Shown here in pieces: positions 9,919-64,000 of a stretch of 64,000 bases of DNA. Origin of the DNA: Nocardioidaceae bacterium (lineage in GTDB: Bacteria > Actinomycetota > Actinomycetes > Propionibacteriales > Nocardioidaceae); contig JAUJOE010000004.1 of NCBI GenBank assembly GCA_030447805.1, positions 141,175 to 205,174 of the forward strand. The letters run 5' to 3'. Under the pieces are notes generated by a model, which was not told where the DNA came from, did no database searches, and saw nothing but the letters and a program-made list of their open reading frames with translations. Numbering within the stretch: position 1 is the stretch's first letter; each line of letters begins with the position of its first letter. A program made the translations under genes and the position numbers.

Positions 9919-11025
9919 TCAGCCGTGCACGCGCGCCACCCACCGCGCAGGATCCGCGATGTCAGCCTGATCGGGGAGGTTGCGGGGTGCCGCCCAAACC
10001 GCGTTGAACCCCTCCATCCCCACCTTGTCAATGACGCCGCGCACGAACACCGCACCATCGCGGTACTGGCGCATCTTGGCGTCGAAGCCCAGCAGCCGAC
10101 GGATCAGCTGGTCGAGCGGGCCGGCGCCGGCGCGGCGCGCAGTGAACTTGCGGCGGATCTGTTCCACACTCGGCACGACCTCGGGCCCCACGCCGTCCAT
10201 GACCACATCGGCATGGCCCTCGAGAAGCGACATGACAGCGGTGATCCGCTCGAGCACCTCCCTTTGCTCCTGGGTCTGCAGCGGGTCGAGCAACGACGCC
10301 TCGGAGTCACCGCGCACCATCCGACCGACCTGCTCCAGCGCCTCGCGCAGCATGCCGGCGAGCTTTTGTGGGTCGAGCTCGGTGCTTTCCAGCAGGTGCG
10401 CAATCTCACCGAGCATGTGCTCGCGCAACCACGGCACCGCGGTGAACTGCACCCGGTGCGTCTCCTCGTGCAGGCACACCCACAGCCGGAAGTCATGGGG
10501 ATCGACTTCCAGCTCGCGCTCCACGTGTACGACGTTCGGCGCGACAAGCAGCAGCCGACCGGCAGTGGCAGTCTCCATCCGGCAGCGTTGGCACTGCTGG
10601 CCCACATCGACGAACGGGTCGAACTGTCCGAGCACTTTGCTCGCCAGGTAAGCGAGCAGACCCCCAGCCTCCACACCGGTGACCCGCGACCCGACCGCCG
10701 CCGTCATACCGCCAGAATCTCCGCGCTTCTCGACCATCTTGGCGATCAGGGGCCGCAGCACGACCTTGAAACCGTCAGCGTTGGCCTGCACCCACCCGGC
10801 TCGGTCGACGATGAGCACCGGTGCGGTAGCCGACTCGGCGTGCAGGCCGGTGTACGCGCGAACGTGCCCCTCGGCAAGTGCCGCGGACTCCCTCAGCTCC
10901 CGCACCGTCTCGCGCGCCTCGTCCCGGCTGACGTCGGGGCCCGGCCGCATGAGCCGCTTGGCGGTGAGCACCGCCAAGTCCCAGTCGACCATCTCCGGGG
11001 TCCCGCCGTGCGCTCGATCTGCCAT
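9919..11025 (-). CDS. zinc-dependent metalloprotease, DUF2342 / type 2 zincin family
   Basis: The protein (about 368 residues, from MADRAHGG) has a CLHEETHRVQF zinc motif in the HExxH form. It belongs to the actinobacterial zincin-like family often labelled a coenzyme F420 biosynthesis-associated protein, although no role in F420 synthesis follows from sequence. The N-terminal part (VDWDLAVLTAKRLMRPGPDV) is typical of the family. It has no signal peptide. Its place directly before tilS is conserved in many Actinobacteria. Substrate unknown. Confidence 0.85.
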   Translation of the reverse strand: MADRAHGGTPEMVDWDLAVLTAKRLMRPGPDVSRDEARETVRELRESAALAEGHVRAYTGLHAESATAPVLIVDRAGWVQANADGFKVVLRPLIAKMVEKRGDSGGMTAAVGSRVTGVEAGGLLAYLASKVLGQFDPFVDVGQQCQRCRMETATAGRLLLVAPNVVHVERELEVDPHDFRLWVCLHEETHRVQFTAVPWLREHMLGEIAHLLESTELDPQKLAGMLREALEQVGRMVRGDSEASLLDPLQTQEQREVLERITAVMSLLEGHADVVMDGVGPEVVPSVEQIRRKFTARRAGAGPLDQLIRRLLGFDAKMRQYRDGAVFVRGVIDKVGMEGFNAVWAAPRNLPDQADIADPARWVARVHG

Positions 11026-11261
11026 GCCGTACACCGTACGTGCCTGGCTGAGAGGGCCGGTCGTGGAGCGGAGACTGGCCGCTCAAGCAGGCGACGAGCA
11101 GCGCCCTGCGGGGGTCTCTGCCGCGCAGCTCGTAAACCAGGTGCAACTAGTGCACTCGGTTGACGAGTCGCGACACCCCTTACCCGGCCCGCCCCTTCCC
11201 GGCCACCACGGCTCCCGGCCCCCGCCGACACCGCGAGGACTGAGCGACTCAGCAGAGCGAC

Positions 11262-49045: not shown

Positions 49046-50208
49046 GTTCGAGCCCTCTCAACGAGATCATCAGCGACTCCAGTGCCAGCAGTGGAGAGAT
49101 TTCGCCCTCAAGCGCCTCTCGGGTGGCGAAGATCTCGGCCAACCTGCGCGTTGACGTCTCCGGCGTCGTGCTGCGCGCCATCGTAGCGACGTCGTGCCGC
49201 AGCTCTTCGTTGACCAGCTCCGCCCGTGAGCCGAGCTGCACCGCGACCACGTCGCGGTAGTAGGAGGCGAGGTCGAGAAGGGAACGGTCGATGGCGCTCA
49301 CGGACGAAACGCTTCGCCCGCTGCTTCTGGTTCTTCTGCAGTTCCTTGGCGGCCGCAGCGAAGCCGGTGCTCTTGACCCCCCGGGTGCCGGCGCCGTACA
49401 CGGTCTCCAGGTCGCGCAGCTCCTCGGCGTCGAGCGCCTCGACCCTGGGCTGGGCTTCCTCGGTCGCGGCCTCCATCAGGTTGGCGGCGCACGTCAGGCA
49501 CGACCCGAGGTCCTTGAGCTGGCCAGGCACGCGCAGCACCTCACGGCGGCGGTTGCGACTCGCCTCGTTCAGTGCCAACGCCCGCGCCCGCCCGATGTGG
49601 CCCTGCGACGCGCGCGCTGCAAAGGCGGCGACCGGCGCGGGCACCTTGTCGCGTTCGGTCAGGTAGGCGGCAACCGCCGCGGTCGGCGGAGTGCGCAGCA
49701 CCAGTGAGCGGCAGCGGGACCGGATCGTCGGCGCGACGTCTTCGACGGTTGGCGCGCACAGCAGCCAGACGGTGCGCGGAGGTGGTTCCTCGATGCTCTT
49801 GAGCAGCGCGTCAGCCGCCGAGTCGGTCAGCCGGTCGGCGTCCTCGACGATCATCAGCTGCCACCGGTTGCCGGCCGGCGCCAGGGCGGCATGTCTGACC
49901 AGTTCGCGGACGGCGTCGACCCTGATCACCGGCTGGTCGGTGACCACTCGGGTGACGTCGGCGTGCGAGCCGGCGAGCGCAGTTCGGCAGGCCAGACAGC
50001 TACCGCAGCCGCCCTGGTCGCACAGCAGCGCTGCGGCGAACGCTCTGGCGGCGTTGGACCGCCCGGACCCGGGAGGGCCGGTGAACAACCAGGCGTGCGT
50101 CATGCCGGCGGTCAGCTCACCGTGCAGTGCCGCGTCGGCAGCCGTCACCGAGGCCTGCAGGCTGTCGATGACGTCGGCCTGACCGACGAGGTCGTCCCAG
50201 ACGGTCAT
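49038..50208 (-). CDS. holB: DNA polymerase III subunit delta' (one frameshift)
   Basis: Delta' is part of the clamp loader at the replication fork. The P-loop is the degenerate actinobacterial form GPPGSGRSNAA, and the zinc knuckle reads CDQGGCGSCLAC. LIVEDADRLTD replaces Walker B and EEPPPRTVWLL is the SRC-region helix, with IRSRCRSL as sensor 1. The frame shifts near 49296-49304, where FVRERHRPF should continue as SAIDRSLLDLASYYRDVV; the corrected protein is about 389 residues. Its ATG overlaps the tmk stop. Confidence 0.88.
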
Positions 50209-52214
50209 ACGTCGGCCGCCTGGTGCCGCTCTGCCTGCTCGAGGAACGGCTGCAGCCGTTCGCGCACGAGTACGGCGATCTCGTCGCGCGGCTGGTTGCC
50301 GTCGACGACCAGGTAGTGCTCCGGGTGCCGCTGGGCCAGCGCGAGGAACGCAGCGCGGATCCGCTGGTGGAAGTCGACAGGCTCTGCCTCCAGCCGGTCA
50401 CGGCCACCGAACCGGCCATGCGCAACCAACGGGTCGACGTCGATCAGCACGGTCAGTTGCGGCCGCAGGCCTCCGGTCGCCCACCGGGCGAGCTGCTCGA
50501 CCTCTCGGCTGCGTAGAGCGCGCCCGGCCCCTTGGTAGGCGAGGAACGAGTCGACGTACCGGTCGGTGATGACGACGGCGCCGCGCCGCAACGCCGGGTT
50601 GACGACCTTCTCGACGTGCTCGGCCTTGTCGGCGGCGTACAGCAGCGCCTCGGCGCGGGCGTCCAGCGCGCCGGTGCCGGGATCGAGCAGGATCTGCCGC
50701 AGTCGCTGCCCGACAGGGGAGTCACCCGGCTCGTGGGTCAGTACGACGTCGTACCCTTCGCGGGTGAGCGCCGTGCCGAGCAGCCGGGCCTGGGTCGACT
50801 TGCCCACGCCCTCGCCACCCTCGAACGCGACGAAGACGCCCCGGTCGGCGTAGACGTCGTGCGATCGGTTCACGGAGTGCCTCAGCTCGCTGCGGATCGA
50901 GGTGCCGGGTAGGTCGTTCATCGCATGGTAGGCAACGAGTCCGACAGCGACCATTGCCACGGCAGAGCCGAGCATGGTGATCGCGGCGCCGTTGTAGTCG
51001 AGCACCGCGTCGTCGTTGAGCCGCCACCTGTGCTCACCGATGAGCCCGGCGAGCAGCGGTGCCAGCGCGAGGAACAGGGCCAGGGCCAGCCGGATCATCG
51101 TCTGCACGAACGCGAAGGTGCGCCCGCGCAGCGCGTCCTCGACCTCCAGCCCAAGCAGGGTGTAGCCGGTGATCCACGCGGTGCCGGAGAAGAACCCGAG
51201 CACCACCGCGAGTACCGACACCACGGCGAGGTTGGCGATCACCGCGATGCCGGCCAACACCACTCCCACGCTGACCAGGCACAACCCGAACAGCCGCCGC
51301 CTCGACACAGCGGGCAACAACCGCGGGCCACGCCACATGCCCAGCGCCAGTCCGCCGAAAACAGCGGCGAACAGCAGTCCCGTAGCCGGGGTCACCGCCG
51401 CCCAGGTCGGCGACGTACACCCCCGGGCCAGCCCGACGACGACGCCACCAGCGGCGAACGCGCCAGTGATGCCAAGGACAAGGCCGCGGATCACCGGCGT
51501 GCGGAAGGCGTACGTCCAGCCCTCCCGGATCACCCGCCATACCCCCTGCCGCTGCTCCGGAGCGAGGGCCGGCCCGGCGGGTATCTCGCGCAGCGTCGCG
51601 ATGATCAGCCCGGACACCACGAACGACGCCGCGTTGAACCACAGCGCCAGATCGACCGGGTCGTCCAGCCAGCCAAGCGATGAGTGCAGCCCCTTCGACC
51701 CCAGCGACAGCACGATGAAGATGCCAGCCGCGGGGAGAGCGGAGCCGTAGGTTGTCGCGATCGCGACCTGGTTGGCGGCCTCCAGCCGATCCCGCGGCAC
51801 CAGGTTGGGCACGGTGGCGTCCTTTGCCGGCAGCCACAGCAGGGTGATCGCCTCGATGAGCACCGTGGCGACCATGACCCACGTCAGCGTGTGCACGATG
51901 GGGATCGACGCGAACACGGCTCCTCGGGCGACGTCGCCAACGACAAGGGTCCAGCGCCGATCCAGCCGGTCAGCCACATACCCCGCGAGCGGTCCTAACA
52001 GAGCAGCGGGTAGTACGCGCAGGAACAGCACACCGGCGATGGCAAAGTTCTGCTTGGCGTAGCTGTCAGGAGCGAGCTCGCTGGCCATCGCGGTCAGCGC
52101 CAGCAGGCCCAACCAGTCACCCAGGCTCGACAACCCCAGCCCAACCCAGAGCCACCGAAACGCCCTGATGCCCAGCACTCCCCCCGCTGGGCGTCGGGCG
52201 GAGGCGGCGCTCAC
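50205..52214 (-). CDS. tmk: MFS transporter fused to dTMP kinase
   Basis: The first 430 residues form a 12-segment major-facilitator-type transporter, with the loop-2/3 motif GYVADRLDRRW. From about residue 455 a complete thymidylate kinase follows: FEGGEGVGKST P-loop, DRYVDSFLAYQGAG and the LIDVDP strand. The fused form is known in Actinobacteria; dTMP kinase is needed to make dTTP, while the transporter's substrate is unknown. A 45-base stretch near 51375-51420 looks locally shifted (CTSPTWAAVTPAT for an expected YVADLGGGDPGYG). GTGA and ATGA overlaps link it to topA and holB. Confidence 0.9.
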   Translation of the reverse strand: MSAASARRPAGGVLGIRAFRWLWVGLGLSSLGDWLGLLALTAMASELAPDSYAKQNFAIAGVLFLRVLPAALLGPLAGYVADRLDRRWTLVVGDVARGAVFASIPIVHTLTWVMVATVLIEAITLLWLPAKDATVPNLVPRDRLEAANQVAIATTYGSALPAAGIFIVLSLGSKGLHSSLGWLDDPVDLALWFNAASFVVSGLIIATLREIPAGPALAPEQRQGVWRVIREGWTYAFRTPVIRGLVLGITGAFAAGGVVVGLARGCTSPTWAAVTPATGLLFAAVFGGLALGMWRGPRLLPAVSRRRLFGLCLVSVGVVLAGIAVIANLAVVSVLAVVLGFFSGTAWITGYTLLGLEVEDALRGRTFAFVQTMIRLALALFLALAPLLAGLIGEHRWRLNDDAVLDYNGAAITMLGSAVAMVAVGLVAYHAMNDLPGTSIRSELRHSVNRSHDVYADRGVFVAFEGGEGVGKSTQARLLGTALTREGYDVVLTHEPGDSPVGQRLRQILLDPGTGALDARAEALLYAADKAEHVEKVVNPALRRGAVVITDRYVDSFLAYQGAGRALRSREVEQLARWATGGLRPQLTVLIDVDPLVAHGRFGGRDRLEAEPVDFHQRIRAAFLALAQRHPEHYLVVDGNQPRDEIAVLVRERLQPFLEQAERHQAADV

Positions 52215-54884
52215 GGGCTCTTTGCCGCGCTCTTCTTCGTGGCCCCGCGCGAGGTCACGCGCTTCTTCGCCGCGGGCTTCCTGGCCGCGCTCGTCTTCGT
52301 CGTACGGCGACTCGGCGCCGGTCCCTTGGCCCGCTTCTCGGCCAGCAGCTCAACCGCCCGGTCCAGCGTTATCGACTCCACGTCGTCGCCCCGGCGCAGG
52401 GTGGCGTTCAACTCCCCGTCGGTCACGTACGGACCGAACCGACCGTTCTTCACCACGACCGGCTTTGCGGTGTTGGGGTCCTCGCCGAGCTCGCGCAGCG
52501 GAGCAGCGGCGGCGCGCCGACCCCGCGTCTTGGGCTGGCGCAGCAGCGCCAGAGCCTCGTCGAGCGTCACCGTGAAGAGCTGCTCTTCGGTCTCGAGGGA
52601 GCGCGACTCCTTGCCCCGGCGAATGTAGGGCCCGTAGCGGCCGTTGGTGGCCTCGATGGTCTCGCCCGTCTCGGGGTCGCTGCCCAAGGCCCTTGGCAGC
52701 GTCAGCAGCCGTACCGCGTCGTCGAGGGTGACAGTGTCGAGCGACATCGACGAGAACAGCGACGAGGTGCGGGGTTTCGCGCTGGTCGGCGCGTCGTCGA
52801 GCACCTCGGTGACATAGGGGCCGTAGCGGCCGTTCTTCGCGACCACGGTGTGACCGGTGGCGGGATCGGTGCCGAGCACCTTCTCGGCGCCGGCAGGGTT
52901 GGCCAGCAGCTCCTTGGCCGCCGCTAGGGTCAGCTCATCGGGTGGCAGGTCATCGGGGATGTTGGCGCGTTCGCCGGCAGCCGACTCGACGTACGGCCCG
53001 TAGCGGCCGACGCGCACCACGACCCCGTCGCCGATCTCGAACGTCGAGAGTTCGCGGGCGTCGATCTCGCCGAGCTCGCTCACCATCGTCTTGAGACCTT
53101 GCAGCTCGCCGGACCCGAAGTAGAACTCGGCGAGCTCGTCGGTTGCGTTGCGCTGGCCGGTGGCGACGTCGTCGAGCACGTCCTCCATGCCGGCAGTGAA
53201 GTTGTAGTCGATCAGCCGGGTGAAGTGCCGCTCCAGCAGCCGCACCACGGCGAACGCCAACCAGGCAGGGACGAGCGCACTGCCCTTCTTGTAGACGTAC
53301 CCGCGGCCCAGGATCGTGCCGATGATCGACGCGTACGTCGACGGGCGACCGATCTCGCGCTCCTCGAGCTCGCGGATCAACGTGGCCTCGGTGTAGCGCG
53401 CCGGCGGGCGGGTCTCGTGCGCGGCCGGGCTGAGCTCAGCAACGGTGACCACCTCACCGGCGGCCAGCTCGGGCAACCGCGTCTCGCGGTCGTCGCGTTC
53501 GCTGTCAGGGTCGTCGGCACCCTCGACGTACGCCTTCAAGAAGCCGTGGAAGGTGATCACCCGGCCGCTGGCGGAGAACTCGCACTCCTCACCGGAGCTG
53601 GCCGTGGCGGCGATGCGCACCGACACCGAGCGGCCCTCGGCGTCCTTCATCTGCGAGGCCACCGTGCGCATCCAGATCAGCTCGTAGAGCCGGAACTCGT
53701 CGCCGGTCAGCCCGGTCTGGCCGGGGGTGCGGAAGTGCTCGCCGGCCGGGCGGATCGCCTCGTGCGCCTCCTGGGCGTTCTTCACCTTGCTCTGGTAGGT
53801 GCGCGGAGCCGACGGCAGGTAGTCGCGGCCGAACAGGTCGGCCACCTGCGCCCGGGCGGCGGCGATAGCGCCCTCCGACAGCGTGATCGAGTCGGTGCGC
53901 ATATACGTGATGAAGCCGTTCTCGTACAGCCGCTGCGCGACCTGCATGGTGCGGGCGGCGCCGTAGCCGAGCTTGCGCGACGCCTCCTGCTGCAGCGTCG
54001 TGGTGCGGAAGGGGGCGTACGGCGACCGGCGGTACGGCTTGCTGTCCACCGACCTGACCTCGAACCGGCTGCCGCGCACGGCGGCGGTGAGCTCTGTCGC
54101 TCGCTGCTCGTCAAGCTGTACGACGTCCGCACCTGCCCGCAGCTGACCTTGGGCGGTGAAGTCGCGACCCTGGGCGACCCGCTGGCCACCCACCCCAGTC
54201 AGCTTGGCGGGGAAGGTTTGCGGAGTCTTGCCCTCACCGGCGTCGAAGACCGCGTCGATGTCCCAGTAGGCCGCGGCCCGGAAGGCGAGCCGCTCCCGCT
54301 CCCGGTCGACGACCAACCGGGTGGCCACCGACTGCACCCGGCCGGCCGACAGGCCGCTCATCACCTTCTTCCACAGCACGGGCGACACCTCGTAGCCGTA
54401 GAGCCGGTCGAGGATCCGGCGGGTCTCCTGAGCCTCCACCAGGTCGCTGTCGATGTCGCGGGGGTGGGCTACCGCGTCGGCGATGGCCTGCGGGGTGATC
54501 TCGTGGAACACCATCCGGCGTACCGGCACCTTGGGCTTGAGCTCGTCGAGCAGGTGCCAGGCGATCGCTTCGCCCTCGCGGTCCTCGTCGGTCGCCAGGT
54601 AGAGCTCACCGGCGTCCTTGAGCAGGGACTTCAGCTTGGTGATCTGTGGCTTCTTGTCCTTCGGTACGACGTAGACCGGGGCGAAGCCGGCGTCGACGTT
54701 CACCCCGAGCCGACCCCATGGCTCACCCTTGTACTTGGCCGGCACCTCGCTGGCGTTGTTGGGCAGGTCGCGGATGTGGCCGACCGAGGACTCCACGACG
54801 TACCCGCGGGCCCAAGAAGCCCGATATCGTCCGCGCCTTCGCGGGCGACTCGACGATGACGAGCTTGTGTCCGGCTTTGGCCAC
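52211..54884 (-). CDS. topA: DNA topoisomerase I (one frameshift)
   Basis: TopA relaxes negative supercoils. The GTG at 54884 starts VAKAGHKLVIVESPAKARTISGFLG; one extra base in GGGCCC at 54808-54813 breaks the frame before RGYVVESSVGHIRDLP. The Toprim acidic cluster is in LATDEDREGEAIAWHLL, and the catalytic Tyr in FITYMRTDS. The C-terminus carries four topoisomerase repeats of the NGRYGPYV type and a Lys/Ala-rich tail, as usual in Actinobacteria. Corrected length is about 890 residues. It heads the topA-tmk-holB run. Confidence 0.93.
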
Positions 54885-55035
54885 GTCCGATGTGCTCCAC
54901 TCCTGGGTACGTCCGTTGTTTCCCAACGGTGTCGGCAGCACACGGTAACGCGGTCAGCGCCTCCGGGCCACGCAGCGCTCCACAGCCGCACGCGCGCATA
55001 CACCCACGCTGACGTCGCGGCAGGTAAACAAAAGG

Positions 55036-57180
55036 TCAGCTGGTGACACTTTCTTTACCGGCGACGGCGCCGCCCTCGCTAGAGGAGGCGTCCTTCTTCA
55101 TCGACTCCTCGAACGTCTGGTGCCACGTCTTCGGCGCGGCGAGTTCTGGCAGGGCGGCCTTGTACTGCTCGACCAGGTCGGGCCACTCCTTCGCCAGCCT
55201 GGTGTGGATGGCGATGGACCGGCGGAGCAGGTCGCGGAACTGCTCAGGGTGCCGCTTGTACCACGACGCCGCCGTACCGTCGGCTGACGAGACGAGCGCC
55301 GAGTCGAACTGCGACAGCAGCCACCATTTGAGGTCGACGTGGGCGACGCTCGCCTCGGGGTTGCGCTTGGCCAGCTCACGCACGGGCAGCACCTGGCGCG
55401 CCGCGCCGACGGCCATCGTCTTGGCCCGGCCCAGTCTGCCTCTGGGCGCCGTCGGCTCCTTGCCCTTACGCGGCGGCTTGCGCCGGCGTGCCTTCGGGAA
55501 CTTGTCGAGGTCGGACTCCGACGTCGAGTCGTCGTACTGCTTGCGAAGCTCGCGCAGCTCGGGCAGCCGCTTCAGCACATCGCGATGCATGCGCTGCGGG
55601 CCCTCGAGGATGTCCTCGATCGCCATCAGGCCCATCTCGGCGGGTCCGTACTGCATCGACAACAGGTGCTTGACCTGGGTCTCGAAGCTCTCGCGGATGA
55701 GCCGACCGCCGCGCTCGTACGGCGAGTGGAGCAGCGCCGCGATGATGCGGTTACGCCGGTGGAAGTACGCCTGCCAGTCGATGGTGTCGTCCTTCTCGTG
55801 CCACGGCACGTGCCAGACGGCGACGCCAGGAAGGGTGACGGTGGGGTAGCCCGCCTCGGCGGCCCGCAGACCGAACTCGGCGTCGTCCCACTTGATGAAC
55901 ATCGGCAGCGACAGGCCGAGCTCGCGGACCACCTGGGTCGGGATCAGGCACATCCACCAGCCGTTGTAGTCGACGTCGATGCGGCGGTGCAGCCAGTGGG
56001 TCGATCGAAGCGAGTGGCGGGCGAAGTTGTGACCGTGGACCGTGTGGGGGGCAGCGCCCCAGAACCACCGGTACTTCGCGACGGTCTCACCGAAGGCGTG
56101 CAGCACCGACCGGTCGTACAGGCTGAACATCTGGCCACCGACAAGCGTGGGTCGCTTCGCGAGGTCGGCGAACGCCACCGCACGCAAGATGCCCTCGGGC
56201 TCGCACACGACATCGTCGTCGAGCAGCAGCACGTAGTCGGCGTCGCCCTTGGCGGTGACCTCGTCCATCGACCGGGAGAACCCGCCCGAGCCGCCGAGGT
56301 TTCCCTGCTCGATGACCCGCAGCTTCGCTCCGAGCGATGCAGCCGCTTGCGGATACAGCTCGTGGTCACTGACCCGCTGGGTGCCTTGGTCGACGACGAG
56401 GATCTGGTCGATGATGTCGAGTACGGCCGGCTGCTCGGCCAGTTTGATCAGCTGGTCGACGCAGAACTCCGGTCGGTTGAACGTCGTAATGCCAATCGAC
56501 AGCGTTCCTGAGGTGGCCTTGTCGGTCTCGAAAACCCAGACCGCGTCCTGCAGCGTCATCGACTTGTCACCGGCCTCGACGTCGAACCAGTACCAGCCGC
56601 CGTCGATGAAGGGCTTCAGCGGCAGGTCGAACTCGATGGTGCTGAGTCCGCGGGAGTCGACGACAGCGGAGTCGGCGCGCTGCACGTGCCCCTTGGCTGT
56701 CGACCGGTAGACGATGATGGTCCCCTGCCCCGACACCCTCATCACCAGTCGTACCGACTCCATCGTGGTCCACCGGCGCCAATAGCTGGCGGGAAAGGCG
56801 TTGAAGTAGGTGCCGAAAGTGAGCCGCCGCTCGGACTTGACAGTGGCGCCGGTGTTGCCGGTGATCGAGCCGAAGCCACCCATGGCCTCAACGGTGTCGC
56901 TGCCGTCGGCTGAGGTCGTCGACGCCGAGCCCTCGGTGGCCTCAGCGTCGTCCTGCTCTGCCCCCGACTGTCGTGAGGTGCTCTCGCCGGCGCTGAAACT
57001 CGACACTCCGCCGATGTACAGCGGGCGGATGTCGAGCTCCTGGTCAGCGCGCATGATCGTGCGCTGAACGATCCGCAGCGGAAGCTGAGGGTGAGGCTGT
57101 TGTGAGCCGTCGGCGAGCTCTTGGTGACCGGAGGTGGGGACAGTGCCGGTCTCGGTCGTGGGCTCGGCGGTGTGAGTCAA
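55036..57180 (-). CDS. galactofuranosyltransferase GlfT2-like
   Basis: A 714-residue cytoplasmic GT2 enzyme of the kind that extends cell-wall galactan from UDP-galactofuranose. The N-terminal beta-rich part has TFGTYFNAFPASYWRRWT, the GT-A core begins LSIGITTFNRPEFC, the metal motif is LLLDDDV, and the acceptor-site motif is KWDDAEFGLRAAEAGYP with the WHVPWHEKDD histidine. A Ser/Glu/Asp/Thr-rich insert at residues 67-100 is longer than in characterised GlfT2. The TTG start has GAGGA about 8 bases upstream. It is divergent from the sulfotransferase-like pair. Confidence 0.9.
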   Translation of the reverse strand: MTHTAEPTTETGTVPTSGHQELADGSQQPHPQLPLRIVQRTIMRADQELDIRPLYIGGVSSFSAGESTSRQSGAEQDDAEATEGSASTTSADGSDTVEAMGGFGSITGNTGATVKSERRLTFGTYFNAFPASYWRRWTTMESVRLVMRVSGQGTIIVYRSTAKGHVQRADSAVVDSRGLSTIEFDLPLKPFIDGGWYWFDVEAGDKSMTLQDAVWVFETDKATSGTLSIGITTFNRPEFCVDQLIKLAEQPAVLDIIDQILVVDQGTQRVSDHELYPQAAASLGAKLRVIEQGNLGGSGGFSRSMDEVTAKGDADYVLLLDDDVVCEPEGILRAVAFADLAKRPTLVGGQMFSLYDRSVLHAFGETVAKYRWFWGAAPHTVHGHNFARHSLRSTHWLHRRIDVDYNGWWMCLIPTQVVRELGLSLPMFIKWDDAEFGLRAAEAGYPTVTLPGVAVWHVPWHEKDDTIDWQAYFHRRNRIIAALLHSPYERGGRLIRESFETQVKHLLSMQYGPAEMGLMAIEDILEGPQRMHRDVLKRLPELRELRKQYDDSTSESDLDKFPKARRRKPPRKGKEPTAPRGRLGRAKTMAVGAARQVLPVRELAKRNPEASVAHVDLKWWLLSQFDSALVSSADGTAASWYKRHPEQFRDLLRRSIAIHTRLAKEWPDLVEQYKAALPELAAPKTWHQTFEESMKKDASSSEGGAVAGKESVTS

Positions 57181-57277
57181 GGTTGGTCCTCAAGAAGGGG
57201 GTGTGGCGGCATCCTCACGGTACCAGCCGGGGCCTCGCTGGCCGCTGCGGCGACACTGCCGGCCCTACGATGAGCAA

Positions 57278-58444
57278 GTGCCCCGGCGTGCCCTGACGAT
57301 TTACCTGCACATCGGTCCGCCGAAGACCGGCACGACATATCTCCAGGACATCGTCTGGCGAAACCGTGACAGCATGCGGCAACGCGACCTCGCGTTCCCC
57401 GGTCGCCCCGGTGAGCACTTCCATGCCGCGTTGGACCTGCGCGGGATTGCGTTCGGCGGGTACGACAACCCCACCGTCGCGGGCGCCTGGTCCCGCCTGG
57501 CCGCCAAGGCGCTGGCCAGCCCGACCGGCAAGGCGCTGGCCAGCCCGACCGGCAAGGCGCTCATCTCGCACGAGATCCTCGCCGGGGCGACACCGGACGA
57601 GATCGAGCGGGCGGTCGCGTCGCTACGTCCGGCGACGGTGCAGGTGGTGTACGGCGCCCGCGATCTCGCGCGCCAGCTGCCCGCGGTGTGGCAGGAGTCG
57701 CTGAAGAACCGGCGCAGCCGCGGCTTCGACGCCTTCTTGTCCACGGCGCTGCGGCCCCGGCTGTCCGACGATGAGCCCACCGGCTTCTGGCGGGCGCAGG
57801 ACCCGGTGGCGACGCTTCGCCGGTGGGCGGCCGTTCTGTCGCCTGAGCACATCCACGTCGTCACGCTGCCCCAGCCGGGTGCCCCGGCCACCACGCTGTG
57901 GGAACGGTTTTGCACGGCCCTTGGTGTCGACCCTGGTGGAGTCGACGTGAGTGTTGCCCGGGTCAACGGGTCGCTCAGCGTCGAGGACGCCGAGGTGCTG
58001 CGCCGGCTCAACCGGGCGCTGCCCGACAACCTGTCCTGGCCGGCGTACGAGCGGCAGGTGAAGCGGCGCTTCAACGCCCGCGCAAACGCCCGAGCGAGCG
58101 CCGCAGTCTCCGGTAACCGGCTGACCGTTCCCGACCGCTACCGGGAGGTCGTCGAAGAGCGGGCGGTCGAACTGCGGGACGGCCTGGCAGCCGCCGGATA
58201 CAACGTCGTCGGTGACCTCGACGACCTGTTCCCGGCTGCGTCGTCCTTCGGTACGCCGACCGAGGTCCCAGCCGATAGGGTTACCGATGCCGCCGTCGAC
58301 ATGTTGGCCGCCGTACTGGCCGAGCCGGACCGGCGCGGCCGGCGCGGCGGTAGTGACGGCGACGGTGGTGGTGGTGGTGGTGGCAAGGACACGGCGAAGG
58401 CGCTGCTGGGACGGCTGCGACGAGGGCGAGGAGGCACCGCATGA
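57278..58444 (+). CDS. sulfotransferase-like protein 1
   Basis: A 388-residue protein starting at a GTG with LTIYLHIGPPKTGTTYLQ, a P-loop of the type that binds the 5'-phosphosulfate of PAPS. The family pattern then runs ISHEIL, VVYGARDLARQLPAVWQESLKN, FWRAQDPVATLRRW and HIHVVTLPQPGAPATTLWERF. No signal or membrane segment. The acceptor is unknown. A 24-base direct repeat duplicates KALASPTG near residue 80, and the C-terminus has a Gly run. It overlaps the next gene by 4 bases. Confidence 0.8.
   Translation: MPRRALTIYLHIGPPKTGTTYLQDIVWRNRDSMRQRDLAFPGRPGEHFHAALDLRGIAFGGYDNPTVAGAWSRLAAKALASPTGKALASPTGKALISHEILAGATPDEIERAVASLRPATVQVVYGARDLARQLPAVWQESLKNRRSRGFDAFLSTALRPRLSDDEPTGFWRAQDPVATLRRWAAVLSPEHIHVVTLPQPGAPATTLWERFCTALGVDPGGVDVSVARVNGSLSVEDAEVLRRLNRALPDNLSWPAYERQVKRRFNARANARASAAVSGNRLTVPDRYREVVEERAVELRDGLAAAGYNVVGDLDDLFPAASSFGTPTEVPADRVTDAAVDMLAAVLAEPDRRGRRGGSDGDGGGGGGGKDTAKALLGRLRRGRGGTA
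57506..57553 (+). repeat. two tandem copies of a 24-base unit
   Basis: The unit, starting AAGGCGCTGGCCAGC, occurs twice exactly and codes for Lys-Ala-Leu-Ala-Ser-Pro-Thr-Gly inside sulfotransferase-like protein 1. It is in frame and lengthens a surface loop that is shorter in the three paralogs. Confidence 0.95.
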
Positions 58445-59724
58445 CGACCGCCCCCGGCGTCGGCGGCAAGCGGGTGTTCTTCCACGTCGGCGCCCCGAAG
58501 ACCGGCACGACGTACCTGCAGAACGTGCTGTTCCAGAACCGGGAGCTGCTCGCGGCCAACGGAGTCCTCTACCCCTACACCGACCAGGGCCAGTCGTTCC
58601 GGTCGATGCAGGACTTCCGAGGAGCAGGCTGGGCTGGCGGCCGGGCCGCTGAGTTCAAGGGTGAGTGGGAGACCGTCGCCCGGCGAGCCCGGGAGTGGGA
58701 CGGGCCGACGGTGATCGTTTCCAACGAGCTGCTCGGCGGGTCACAACCGGACCGGATCGCGCGGGGCCTCGCCACCGTCCAACCAGCTGAGGTGCACGTT
58801 GTCTTCACCGCGCGCGACCTCGCCCGCCAGCTCGTTTCTGACTGGCAGGAGCAGATCAAGCACAAGCACACGCTGACCCTCGAGCAGTTCGTCGACGACC
58901 TGATCGAGTTCGGACTCGACGCCCCCAAACCGTTCGGTGAGCTGTTTTGGGGTATGCACGACGCCACCTACGTGCTGAACCGCTGGGTGACGGTGGTCCC
59001 GGCCGAGCGCATTCACGTCGTCACGGTTCCGCAGTCCGGCGCTCCTCGCGACACGCTGTGGCGGCGCTTTTGCGCTGTCACCGGGCTGGAGCCGGAGCTC
59101 TACGACTCCGACACCGAACGCGCCAACACCTCGATGGGGGTCGCCGAGACCGAGCTGGTCCGGCGGATGAACCTCGACGTCCAGAGGATGCCCCACCAGC
59201 ACTATGACCCGCTCGTCCGCAAGTTGCTGGCCGAGGACATCCTCGGTGGCCAGTCACCGCGGCTGATGTTGCCCACCGGCCGACTCGACTGGGTCGATGC
59301 GCGGTCCCAGCAGCTCATCGCCGAGCTCGCCAGCTCCGGTTACCAGATCGAAGGCGACCTGGCGGAGCTGCGGCCTCGGCCCGAGGACCATGCGGCGTAC
59401 ATCTCGCCCAGCGAACTCGATGACGCAGACCTCGCCCCGGCGGCCATCAGAGCCGCGACCGGGCTGCTTCGACACAGCGCCCGTCAGCGTCGCCGCATCG
59501 CTGAGCTGCAGGCGGCGGTCAGCGGCGAGCGTGGCCGCGCCCCGGGTGTTGGCACCCGGGCGGCGGTCAGCGGCGAGCGTGGCCGCGCCCCGGGTGTTGG
59601 CACCCGGGCGGCGGTCAGCGGCGAGCGTGGCCGCGCCCCGGGTGTTGGCACCCGGGCCAGATCATTGCTCGGTCGGGCGCGCCGTCGAGCCGGGCGCCTG
59701 GTGCACGTCCAACGGTCGCCGTAG
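58441..59724 (+). CDS. sulfotransferase-like protein 2
   Basis: This 427-residue paralog has the same plan: VFFHVGAPKTGTTYLQ, VSNELLGG, VVFTARDLARQLVSDWQEQIKHK, NRWVTVVPAERIHVVTVPQSGAPRDTLWRRF. The N-terminal P-loop is complete. The last 80 residues are different, with three exact copies of the 16-residue unit AAVSGERGRAPGVGTR and a basic end. The ATG overlaps the stop of paralog 1, so both are made from one message. Confidence 0.8.
   Translation: MTTAPGVGGKRVFFHVGAPKTGTTYLQNVLFQNRELLAANGVLYPYTDQGQSFRSMQDFRGAGWAGGRAAEFKGEWETVARRAREWDGPTVIVSNELLGGSQPDRIARGLATVQPAEVHVVFTARDLARQLVSDWQEQIKHKHTLTLEQFVDDLIEFGLDAPKPFGELFWGMHDATYVLNRWVTVVPAERIHVVTVPQSGAPRDTLWRRFCAVTGLEPELYDSDTERANTSMGVAETELVRRMNLDVQRMPHQHYDPLVRKLLAEDILGGQSPRLMLPTGRLDWVDARSQQLIAELASSGYQIEGDLAELRPRPEDHAAYISPSELDDADLAPAAIRAATGLLRHSARQRRRIAELQAAVSGERGRAPGVGTRAAVSGERGRAPGVGTRAAVSGERGRAPGVGTRARSLLGRARRRAGRLVHVQRSP
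59512..59655 (+). repeat. three tandem copies of a 48-base unit
   Basis: The unit begins GCGGCGGTCAGCGGCGAGCG and ends GTTGGCACCCGG. The three copies (59512, 59560, 59608) are identical and in frame, coding for a 16-residue repeat in the tail of sulfotransferase-like protein 2. Exact identity implies recent or continuing expansion. Confidence 0.97.
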
Positions 59725-59735
59725 CCGCCCGGCAC

Positions 59736-60845
59736 TCAGTTCCCCTCGGCGCTTCGCCGCCGCTCGGGTGACCGGTTGCCGCGTCGGCGGCGCTCGCGCG
59801 ACTCCGCCCGCTGTTCTTGCTGGCGGGTGAGCACGACATGCAGTACGTCGAGTGCGGCGTCCAGCAGCTCTGTGTCGGTCAGGTCGGCCGGCTCGCCCCA
59901 TGGCCCAGCGCGCGCCGTCGGCTCGGCGGCGGGAAGCAGGTCGTCGAGATCCCCCACGACCGAGTAGCCGGCCGCTCGGACCCGCTCGGTGAGCTCGCGC
60001 GCAGCGGTCGCGAAGAAGTCCCGCTCGGGTGCTGAGAGCGTCGGCTTCCTCGGGTCGCTGATCGCCTCGACGAACGACGTGTCGACCTCGCCCCTGATCG
60101 TGCGCCGGTACGTCGGCCACGGCAGCTGGCTGCCATGCCGGGCGTTGTAGCGGCGCAGCAGTTCGGTCTGCAGGATGCCGAGCGACGGGTTGGTCGAGCC
60201 AGCGTTCTCGGCGCGGTAGGAGTCCCCGCGCCTTCCCAGCCCGCTCAGGAAGCGGTCCCACAGCACGGTGGGCGGTTCACCGGGCGGAGGCGCGGTCACG
60301 ATGATGACCCGAGACGGGTCGAGGCCGCGGGACCACCGCTGCGCCACCGCCGCAGCATCTTGGGCCCGCCAGAACGCGTGGTCGCCGCCGGCCTTGGAGC
60401 GCAGTACCGCCTGCACGAAGTCCCGGTAGCTGATCGTCTGCTGGTTCTTCACCCGCTCCTGCCACACCGCCGGCACCTGCCGCAGCAGGTCACGGGCGGT
60501 GTACACGACGTACACCTCCCCCGCGAACGCCGACAGCGCCGTGCGGATCTGCGCCTGGTTGCAGTAGACGAACAGCTCGCTGGAGATCACGACGGCCTTA
60601 CCGTCCCACGAGTTCGCCTTGTCGACCAGCTTGCGCCAGGCGCCCGCGATGCCGGGCACGTCCTTTCGCTGCGCCGGAGTGCCGCGAAGGTCCCACGCAG
60701 CGGTGTGGTGGCCGCCGCCGGCGAACCGCGGGTACAAGATGCCGTCGTCCTTCAGCGCCCGCCGGTTGGCAGCCAGCAGCGCCTGCAGATAGGTGGTGCC
60801 GGTCTTGGGGGCGCCGATGTGCAGGAAGACCCGCTCAGGCGCCAC
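59736..60845 (-). CDS. sulfotransferase-like protein 3
   Basis: The GTG at 60845 starts VAPERVFLHIGAPKTGTTYLQALL, and overlaps the end of paralog 4 by 11 bases. The protein (369 residues) has ISSELFVYC, VVYTARDLLRQVPAVWQERVKN, FWRAQDAAAVAQRWSRGLDPSRVIIVTAPPPGEPPTVLWDRF and the family's late segment VVGDLDDLLPA. The C-terminus is Arg/Glu-rich. It is convergent with paralog 2, 11 bases apart. Confidence 0.8.
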   Translation of the reverse strand: MAPERVFLHIGAPKTGTTYLQALLAANRRALKDDGILYPRFAGGGHHTAAWDLRGTPAQRKDVPGIAGAWRKLVDKANSWDGKAVVISSELFVYCNQAQIRTALSAFAGEVYVVYTARDLLRQVPAVWQERVKNQQTISYRDFVQAVLRSKAGGDHAFWRAQDAAAVAQRWSRGLDPSRVIIVTAPPPGEPPTVLWDRFLSGLGRRGDSYRAENAGSTNPSLGILQTELLRRYNARHGSQLPWPTYRRTIRGEVDTSFVEAISDPRKPTLSAPERDFFATAARELTERVRAAGYSVVGDLDDLLPAAEPTARAGPWGEPADLTDTELLDAALDVLHVVLTRQQEQRAESRERRRRGNRSPERRRSAEGN

Positions 60846-61947
60846 GGCGGACCTTGTCCCGCAGCCGCGCTGCCAGCCCTCGGGCTCGAGCGCCGAGGCC
60901 TTCATCGGCAGCAGCCAGCGGCTTCGGGCCCCTCCTCGGCCGCAAGATCACCTCGTCCCTGATCACCTCAGCGGCGACCCGCAGCAGCTGGTCGGGGGTG
61001 AGATCGCCAGGTCCGAACACCTCGGCGACGGGAAGCTGGGGAGTGAGCTCGGCCAGGTCGCCGACCACTCGGCATCCCGATCTCTCCAGGTACCTGACCA
61101 TCGCCGTGGCTCTTTCGTTGACGGCGTCGTGCCAATCCGGCGGAACGAGGATCCTCGTCGACTCCCGGGAGGCGAGCTTGTGCTCGGCGAACTGACGCTT
61201 CACGGCGCGGGCGTAGCGCGGCCACGGGAAGTCCTCGGGAAGCACCGAGTTGACGTGCCTCAGCAGCTCCGCCTCGGCGGGACCGAGCGAGACGTTGCCG
61301 GCGGCCTCGGGAAGCTCGATCGGCACGTCCGGCAGCTCGATCGCGCGGGAGAAGCGGTTCCACAGCTCGTCGCGGGCACCACCGGGCGCCGGCACGGTCA
61401 CCACGGTGACGTTGGCCATTCCCACGGCCCGGCCCCACCGCCGTACGACCTTGCTGACGTCTTGGGCCCGCCAGAAGAACTTGTGCTCGCCGGCCTCGGC
61501 GTCGAGGAAGACGTCGTGGAGGAACTCCCCGTAGCTGCCGGTCGCCCGGTTCTTCAGCGTCTCCTGCCAGACCGCCGGGACCTGGCGGCCCAAGTCGCGC
61601 ACCGTCAGTACGACGCGGATCTCGGCGTCGACGAAGGACTCCTGCACCCGGCGCACCTCGGCGTTGGAGCATCGGGCGAACGTCTCGTGGGAGATGATCG
61701 CGTCGCCGTCGTAGCCGTTGACCTCCGTTGCGATGCGGTCCCACATGCCGGCGGTGTCGAGGTGGTCGTACTTCTCCGCCTCCAGCGCGCGCAGGTCGAT
61801 GGACGCCATGAACTGGTCGCCGGACCTCTTCCCTGGGTACAGCAGGCCGCCGGCACGCAGCGCGTCGCGATGTCCGTGGAGGATCCGCTGGAGGTACGTC
61901 GTGCCTGTCTTCGCCACCCCCACATGCATGTGCACCCTGTGCGCCAC
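60835..61947 (-). CDS. sulfotransferase-like protein 4
   Basis: The GTG at 61947 has AGGAG about 7 bases upstream. The 370-residue protein reads HMHVGVAKTGTTYLQRIL, ISHETFARC, VVLTVRDLGRQVPAVWQETLKN, FWRAQDVSKVVRRWGRAVGMANVTVVTVPAPGGARDELWNRF and VVGDLAELTP. A basic C-terminal helix (LAARLRDKVRRGA) might touch the membrane. It is the first gene of the minus-strand pair and lies 28 bases upstream of the hppA stop on the same strand. Confidence 0.8.
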   Translation of the reverse strand: MAHRVHMHVGVAKTGTTYLQRILHGHRDALRAGGLLYPGKRSGDQFMASIDLRALEAEKYDHLDTAGMWDRIATEVNGYDGDAIISHETFARCSNAEVRRVQESFVDAEIRVVLTVRDLGRQVPAVWQETLKNRATGSYGEFLHDVFLDAEAGEHKFFWRAQDVSKVVRRWGRAVGMANVTVVTVPAPGGARDELWNRFSRAIELPDVPIELPEAAGNVSLGPAEAELLRHVNSVLPEDFPWPRYARAVKRQFAEHKLASRESTRILVPPDWHDAVNERATAMVRYLERSGCRVVGDLAELTPQLPVAEVFGPGDLTPDQLLRVAAEVIRDEVILRPRRGPKPLAAADEGLGARARGLAARLRDKVRRGA

Positions 61948-61975: not shown

Positions 61976-64000
61976 TCAGCGGGCGCTGGCGCTCACCCGT
62001 TGGGTGTCGGTCTCGCCGATGGCGACGGTCCGACGCTTGGAGATGTAGACGGCGGCGACGACGATGAGCGCGGCGCTGATCGCGATGATCAGGCGCAACG
62101 TCGTGTTGGCGTCCTCGCCGTACGTCATCTTGACCACGGCCGCGGCGATCAGCAGCGACACGAGGTTCATCACCTTCAGCAGCGGGTTGATCGCGGGGCC
62201 GGCGGTGTCCTTGAACGGGTCGCCGACGGTGTCACCGATGATCGTGGCCTCGTGCGCCGGCGACCCCTTGCCGCCGTGCACGCCGTCCTCGACGAGCTTC
62301 TTGGCGTTGTCCCAGGCGCCGCCGGAGTTGGCGAGGAAGACCGCCATCAGCGTGCCAGCCCCGATCGCGCCGGCCAGGAAGCAGCCGAGCGGGCCGACGC
62401 CGAGGCCGAAGCCGACGGCGACCGGTGTGAGAATCGCCAGCAACCCTGGGGTGGCGAGCTCGCGCAGCGAGTCGCGGGTGCAGATGTCGACGACCTTGCC
62501 GTACTCCGGGCGGCCGGTGCCGTCCATGATGCCGGGGATCTCGCGGAACTGCCGGCGCACCTCGAAGACGACCGCGCCGGCAGCCCGCCCGACGGCGTTG
62601 ATCGCCAGGCCGGAGAACAGGAAGACGACCGAGACCCCGATAAGCAGGCCCATCAGGTTGGCCGGGTCGGCGACGTTGAGCACGCCAAGCAGACCGAGCG
62701 CGTCGTGGACCGAAGGGTCGCCCGTCATGGTGGGGATCGCCTCACGTGCTGCGGAGGTGACGGCGTCTGTGTAGGCGCCGAACAGGGCCGTCGCAGCCAG
62801 CACCGCGGTCGCGATCGCGATGCCTTTGGTGATGGCCTTGGTGGTGTTGCCGACCGCGTCGAGCTCGGTGAGGATCGCCGCGCCGCGCTGGTCGACGTCG
62901 CCCGACATCTCAGCGATCCCCTGCGCGTTGTCGGAGACGGGGCCGAAGGTGTCCATCGCGACGATAACGCCAACGGTGGTCAGCAGGCCGGTGCCCGCGA
63001 GCGCCACCGCGAACAGCGAGACCACCACCGAGCCACCACCGAGCAGGAAGGCGCCGTACACCGCTGAGCCGATGACGAGCGCCGTGTAGACCGCCGACTC
63101 GAACCCGACAGCGAGGCCCGACAGGATCACCGTCGCCGCGCCGGTGAGCGAGGTCGTCCCGACATCCTTCACCGGCCGGTGCTCGGTGCCGGTGAAGTAG
63201 CCGGTCAGCGCCAAGATCAGCGCGGCCAACGCGATGCCGATCAGCACCGCCACCAGCGCGATGACGCGCGGGTCGCCCTCCCCGCCACCGCTGCCGAGGC
63301 CGAGCGCTTGGCCAATGAGGCCCGTGCTCGCAGAGGACGTCGCTCAGGCCGGCGAAGGTGCTGGGTAGGTAGGCGAACGCCGCGATCGCGCACAGCACCG
63401 CCGACATGGCGGCGGAGAGGTAGAACGCCCGGTTGATCGTGGTGAGGCCGCCTTCGCCCTCCCGCGGCCGGGTGATGTAGACGCCGACGATCGCGGTGAG
63501 CGCGCCGATCGCCGGCACGATCAAGGGAAACACGAGACCTTCCTCGCCGAATGCGACCCTGCCGAGGATCAGCGCGGCGACCAGCGTGACGGCGTACGAC
63601 TCGAACAAGTCGGCGGCCATGCCGGCGCAGTCGCCGACGTTGTCGCCCACGTTGTCGGCGATGGTGGCGGCGTTGCGCGGGTCGTCCTCGGGGATGTTCT
63701 GCTCCACCTTGCCGACCAGGTCAGCACCCACATCGGCGGCCTTGGTGAAGATGCCGCCGCCGACCCGCATGAACATCGCGAGCAGCGCTGCGCCGAACCC
63801 GAAGCCCTCGAGCACCAACGGTGCGTCGCCCTTGTAGATGAGCACCACCGCGGCAGCTCCCAGCAGACCGAGGCCAACCGTCCACATGCCGACAGCGCCG
63901 CCGGTGCGGAACGCCACCCGCATGGCGGGGTCGCGGCCCTCGTTCTGAGCGGCGGCTGCCATCCGGACGTTGGCCTTCACCGCGAGCGACATCCCCATGT
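61976..64000 (-). CDS. hppA: K+-independent membrane H+-pyrophosphatase (partial, one frameshift)
   Basis: This membrane pump couples pyrophosphate hydrolysis to proton export. The catalytic loops include DNVGDNVGDCAGMAADLFESYAV, and the Lys in GNTTKAITKG marks the K+-independent class. Many membrane segments are present. The frame shifts at GG near 63335; removing one base gives GLSDVSSASTGLIGQALGLGSGG. The N-terminal part (about 80 residues or more, upstream of SLAVKANVRMAAAAQNEG) lies beyond the right edge of the window. Confidence 0.92.

Follow-up and report, generated by a model that had tools for sequence, protein, structure and literature searches.

Sulfotransferase-like paralogs beside a GlfT2 gene in Nocardioidaceae: candidates for the sulfation of cell-wall galactofuranan

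Four sulfotransferase-like genes between glfT2 and hppA

The window, i.e., the whole 64,000-nucleotide stretch of DNA analysed here, comes from a Nocardioidaceae MAG (own assembly of 2.5 Mb, 71% complete) and carries the gene order topA - glfT2 - paralogs A, B, C and D - hppA. The glfT2 gene (55036-57180, minus strand, TTG start) encodes a polymerising galactofuranosyltransferase of 714 aa, for which PF17994, PF13641 and PF19320 all scored over cutoff (Glft2_N, GT2 and GlfT2_domain3 with 114.4, 74.9 and 142.7 bits) and for which phmmer gave E-values of 1.6e-152 to a solved galactofuranosyltransferase and 2e-145 to 4fix. Judged by its sequence, this gene is a bona fide GlfT2, and it provides the sole match to Glft2_N in its own genome; the initial annotation, which had placed the plus-strand paralogs next to a divergent GlfT2-like gene, is thus borne out by these three domains and the phmmer match. 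On the outer sides, topA (52211-55003, minus strand; Pfam Topoisom_bac and Toprim) is a conserved flank of the cluster with no part in its function, and the 3′ part of the H+-pyrophosphatase gene hppA (61976-63253, minus strand; PF03030) forms the other conserved flank. Note that hppA is split across two frames in the window MAG (about 62910-63253), while the sister genome from the same genus, Nocardioidaceae bacterium YX2bin9, holds one intact ORF of 819 aa; the frame break is probably a sequencing frameshift, and the end of holB near 49108 resembles it.

All four paralogs are intact ORFs. On the plus strand, paralog A (57203-58444) more likely starts, from a reading of the sequence, at GTG 57278 than at 57203, which leaves about 97 bp to glfT2, and it overlaps paralog B (58441-59724) by 4 nt. 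On the minus strand, paralog C (59736-60905) has an uncertain start, its conserved domain being underway by 60839, so that its overlap with paralog D (60835-61947), which adjoins hppA and is 96% identical to its counterpart in the sister genome, is at most 71 nt and set by the true start. The two overlapping pairs converge tail to tail across a gap of 11 nt, exactly as first described. The motif segments reported for the four paralogs were likewise recovered by alignment: PKTGTTYLQ is common to paralogs A-C and reads AKTGTTYLQ in the fourth, and RDLxRQ(L/V)...WQE, FW..(Q/H)D and VTxPxxG occur in all four. Identities amount to 36-41% with the first paralog and 31-36% with the fourth (deeper alignment), and these values of 31-41% rule out chance and establish homology. 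The description as a cluster of four paralogs is correct for the locus but incomplete for the genome, since the four genes belong to a larger set of roughly 11 genes at five loci (15 match pieces). Near-perfect in-frame tandem repeats were also observed, one within paralog A (57501-57561, 24 bp x 2.5) and one in the tail of paralog B (59511-59657, 48 bp x 3.1); the 48-bp array is absent from paralog B of the sister genome, reflecting either true length variation or an assembly artefact.

Fold, active-site residues and database recognition

The family is uncatalogued, as no Pfam or NCBIfam model matches it at cutoff. Indeed, the matches of the window genes to Sulfotransfer_3 (PF13469) and Sulfotransfer_1 (PF00685) all remained under the gathering cutoff (best 17.1 bits versus 27), and it is the P-loop segment that matches weakly, most members showing no match at all; Sulfotransfer_3 was matched by only 4 of 73 members at an E-value of 0.01, and none of the 73 matched a relevant NCBIfam family. 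Sequence searches of the PDB returned no true relative, and one profile match with a low E-value was rejected as a designed helical protein for which short repeats drive the match. A plasmid search gave weak alphaproteobacterial matches and nothing more. No description of such a family of sulfotransferases was found in the literature searched, which held few subscription journals, and its status as undescribed is therefore weak evidence of novelty.

Structural comparison was more informative. The AlphaFold models of paralogs D (pLDDT 91.2, pTM 0.86) and B (pLDDT 87.3) both have NDST1 with PAPS as their best structural match (Z 14.7 for D and 15.1 for B, VIA), with an rmsd of 4.0-4.3 over about 240 residues against NDST and 3-OST; the 3-OST enzymes follow at Z of about 14 and the cytosolic SULTs at about 10. 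Nearly all of the top 50 rows of the structure search were sulfotransferases, and the Foldseek comparison made for paralog D led to sulfotransferases as well. The fold thus resembles, over about 225-240 residues, that of the human heparan sulfate 3-O-sulfotransferases and the NDST sulfotransferase domain (1T8T, 3UAN, 1NST, 8CCY), both of the glycan-acting group, with which the family has in common the P-loop, an Arg after strand 3 and, judged by the order of elements, probably a Glu after strand 2. However, identity to these enzymes is only 10-14%, they are animal Golgi membrane enzymes, and most family members carry Ala instead of Ser eight residues after the Arg (Arg+8).

Among 209 members, Glu88 and Trp171 are invariant (209 each), Arg117 and Trp127 occur in 208, and the P-loop residues Lys13 and Thr16 in 204 and 198, respectively. 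In the model of paralog D, Arg117, the predicted Arg of the 3′-phosphate site, directly follows strand 109-116, and Glu88 directly follows strand 82-87, its match to the Glu of heparan-type enzymes being made by the order of elements; those enzymes carry their catalytic base after strand 2. At Arg+8, whose equivalence to the 3′-phosphate Ser is set by spacing, 160 of the 209 members have Ala and 44 have Ser; within the window, Ser is found in paralog B (RDLARQLVSDWQE) and Ala in paralogs A, C and D. Of the PAPS pocket that the initial annotation called for, the models show the sulfotransferase fold, P-loop, Glu and Arg, but the presumed 3′-phosphate Ser is replaced in three of the four paralogs, and this Ala is a real departure from the classic enzymes, where Ser stands. 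Taken together with the models, the family to which the four paralogs belong very likely consists of sulfate-attaching enzymes. In addition, a membrane-like stretch was found in none of 198 members, and the last 25 residues have a mean charge of +5.2 versus -0.6 in body segments, with 165 of the 198 tails at +3 or more.

Distribution of the family and its linkage to galactan genes

Family members were found in 38 of 58 relatives, mostly among the 37 Nocardioidaceae genomes, with up to 17 match pieces each, while other families of the order had none or one; in an even sample across the phylum, one member was present in only 9 of 396 genomes. The named relatives with the family are mainly Nocardioides and Nocardioidaceae MAGs, together with some Pseudonocardiaceae, Actinomadura, Thermomonospora, Jiangellales and Geodermatophilaceae.

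Using the coordinates of members, glfT2 and glf from the search listings and a threshold of 10 kb, 16 of 28 Nocardioidaceae genomes were seen to have a member near glfT2 (against 1.5 under random placement, P 5e-14, shared ancestry ignored) and 10 of 27 to have one near glf (against 1.4, P 5e-7, with the same disregard of ancestry); in the other 12 of the 28 glfT2-bearing genomes the family is placed elsewhere, with no member near glfT2. In its usual form, as read from the sequences, the locus has hppA, then two to four members, then glfT2 and topA, as in Nocardioides jiangsuensis WL0053 (L088); elsewhere in these genomes, a further locus reads purE - member - LCP - LCP - GT2 - GT2 - glf - Wzm - Wzt. 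The window genome carries both: its glf (C19:152699-153316) has Wzm/Wzt-, GT2- and LCP-type neighbours, and a further member about 6-7 kb away clusters with the LCP, GT2 and ABC exporter genes. Outside the Nocardioidaceae, members stand inside a complete glf-glfT2-Wzm-Wzt cluster in the Thermomonosporaceae Actinomadura and Thermomonospora (L139, L143, L147), glfT2 lies 14-17 bp upstream of a member in Pseudonocardiaceae MAGs (L102, L107), and Actinophytocola (L155) shows linkage to galactan genes too. Of all 78 named loci, which were picked by sequence and regardless of context, 19 have galactan markers. The link to glycan genes in relatives that the initial annotation asked for is therefore present, in the form of glf, glfT2, Wzm/Wzt and LCP genes in several families, and we regard the link to galactan, drawn from these gene neighbourhoods, as strong but inferred.

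The linkage is not universal. Two essentially complete Nocardioidaceae genomes (G006, G021) have members without glf and glfT2, and a large Nocardioides clade carries a member pair at a conserved locus unrelated to galactan genes, next to genes whose translations we read as HMG-CoA-lyase-like and as a mutM-like glycosylase. This arrangement of two members without galactan genes is seen in most Nocardioides (L109-L154, e.g., L113:7735-8817 and 10004-11200). Since members exist without glf and glfT2, and since this clade is unlinked, the family is not confined to galactan, and other acceptors must be the targets of some paralogs.

A tree of 206 members places each window paralog in a separate clade, made up largely of orthologs that other genera carry at glfT2-linked loci. 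As an example, paralog A forms its own clade with glfT2-adjacent orthologs in relatives, the orthologous clade of paralog B adjoins glfT2 in about ten relatives, and paralog C also has orthologs in linked loci. A private local amplification of the four genes was rejected because all four clades are old and extend to other genera. The arrangement must accordingly be of long standing and has been kept, which suggests non-redundant roles of the paralogs. Along the tree, the linked or unlinked state changed at least 28 times.

Several other genes recur near members. LicD-methyltransferase fusion genes accompany members at about 15 loci, both within galactan clusters and away from them (e.g., L161:9330-10889; also L108, L123, L131, L150, L162, L102, L107, L106, L116 and L118), and are a lead to further decoration; LicD was not found in the window genome, a MAG 71% complete. 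Among members near glf, a polysaccharide pyruvyltransferase (L076:9084-10232, L150:13769-15037) suggests pyruvylation as a second decoration. Sulfatase-like genes lie near members in Thermomonosporaceae and Pseudonocardia (L143:16276-18174, L147:6863-8350, L097:12717-14285), two of them beside galactan clusters, and could possibly encode a turnover enzyme for a sulfated polymer, but, sulfatases being common, they were excluded from the evidence. In two actinobacteria with large genomes (L182, L183), distant members adjoin a cytidylyltransferase-like gene which, read as IspD/TarI type, hints at a possible link to teichoic acid.

A candidate sulfation step and its alternatives

In agreement with the sulfotransferase assignment of the initial annotation, the window genome has the genes for PAPS synthesis, with an APS kinase gene at a distance of about 1.2 kb from cysD; the gene that follows encodes an elongation-factor-type GTPase and fits CysN, and the APS kinase is split, probably by a frameshift. 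APS kinase was found in 48 of the 58 relatives, so that its presence is necessary for our reading and lends it no specificity.

We consider it probable (roughly 0.62), on genomic evidence (gene linkage, PAPS-synthesis genes, sequence conservation and predicted fold), that the four gene products act in the cytosol as PAPS-dependent carbohydrate sulfotransferases and sulfate lipid-linked galactofuranan before its export. In such a scheme, GlfT2 would extend the lipid-linked galactofuranan at the inner membrane face, CysD/CysN and APS kinase would make PAPS, and the sulfotransferases would move the sulfo group to hydroxyls of the chain, with the Glu after strand 2 as the likely base; Wzm/Wzt would then export the sulfated chain and LCP proteins would attach it to peptidoglycan. 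The lack of a membrane helix and the basic C-terminal tail would place the action of these enzymes at the inner face, on the chain of GlfT2. We infer the use of PAPS, the galactan acceptor, the assignment of one position to each paralog and the order relative to export, and for the glfT2-linked members galactan or its lipid-linked precursor is the likely acceptor.

The best-surviving alternative, which we hold to be clearly less probable but worth weighing, is that these are true PAPS sulfotransferases which act on a different surface glycan, on a glycolipid or on a decoration borne by galactan (such as groups transferred by LicD), wall-glycan genes being generally clustered. The roughly 11 copies spread over five loci in the genome, the members of G006 and G021, the LicD-methyltransferase fusions at loci partly away from galactan genes and the pyruvyltransferase of two loci are all in line with it; nevertheless, glfT2 and glf are the tightest and most repeated neighbours, at 14-17 bp in Pseudonocardiaceae and within a few hundred bp in many Nocardioidaceae. 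A sulfotransferase fold kept without use of PAPS, i.e., acting on another nucleotide or non-catalytic, with Ala for the 3′-phosphate Ser, appears improbable: the Ala of 160 of 209 members, among them three window paralogs, and the absence of both a family model and a sequence match to any characterised sulfotransferase speak for it, but Lys13, Thr16, Glu88 and Arg117 are almost invariant, Ser is retained by paralog B and its glfT2-adjacent orthologs, and a family member of Actinopolyspora alba has an APS kinase gene (L138:9324-9956, minus strand, E 1.7e-53) as its divergent neighbour. Least credible of all is a relic neighbourhood, in which an ancestral copy inserted next to glfT2, in the interval from hppA to topA, and then multiplied on the spot without any functional connection. 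Even if the single shared locus hppA-SULF-glfT2-topA makes up much of the Nocardioidaceae linkage, the same genomes have the separate glf link, Thermomonosporaceae and Pseudonocardiaceae show links independent of it, and the linked or unlinked state changed repeatedly on the tree.

Sulfation of galactofuranan would thus be a decoration arm, unrecognised so far, on a known pathway. The gene kinds found here are those of the mycobacterial and corynebacterial galactan pathway (Glf, GlfT1/2, Wzm/Wzt, LCP), which to our knowledge is described in textbooks (glf/glfT2) without sulfotransferase-like genes and without galactan sulfation. The proposal of an undescribed pathway in the initial annotation would accordingly apply to the decoration step and not to the pathway itself, and part of the family lies away from galactan genes. 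Few sulfated polymers are known from described bacterial walls, and no sulfated bacterial galactofuranan was found in the literature searched, with its few subscription journals. The Kdn-teichulosonic acid of Promicromonospora carries the sulfated sugar Glcp3SO3 (reviewed in PMC6801904), a precedent for actinobacterial wall sulfation in another polymer and another organism.

More tentatively, and with doubt prevailing, sulfated galactofuranan could be a major anionic wall polymer in Nocardioidaceae and in some Thermomonosporaceae and Pseudonocardiaceae, in which the paralog set would write position-specific sulfation as a bacterial counterpart of the glycosaminoglycan codes; such a position code, with many paralogs as its writers, is possible. 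If our preferred reading of galactofuranan sulfation is true, a widespread family of soil actinobacteria would bear a sulfated wall layer that has escaped notice and may serve as an anionic polymer akin to teichoic acid, and its genomes would constitute a new reservoir of glycan sulfotransferases.
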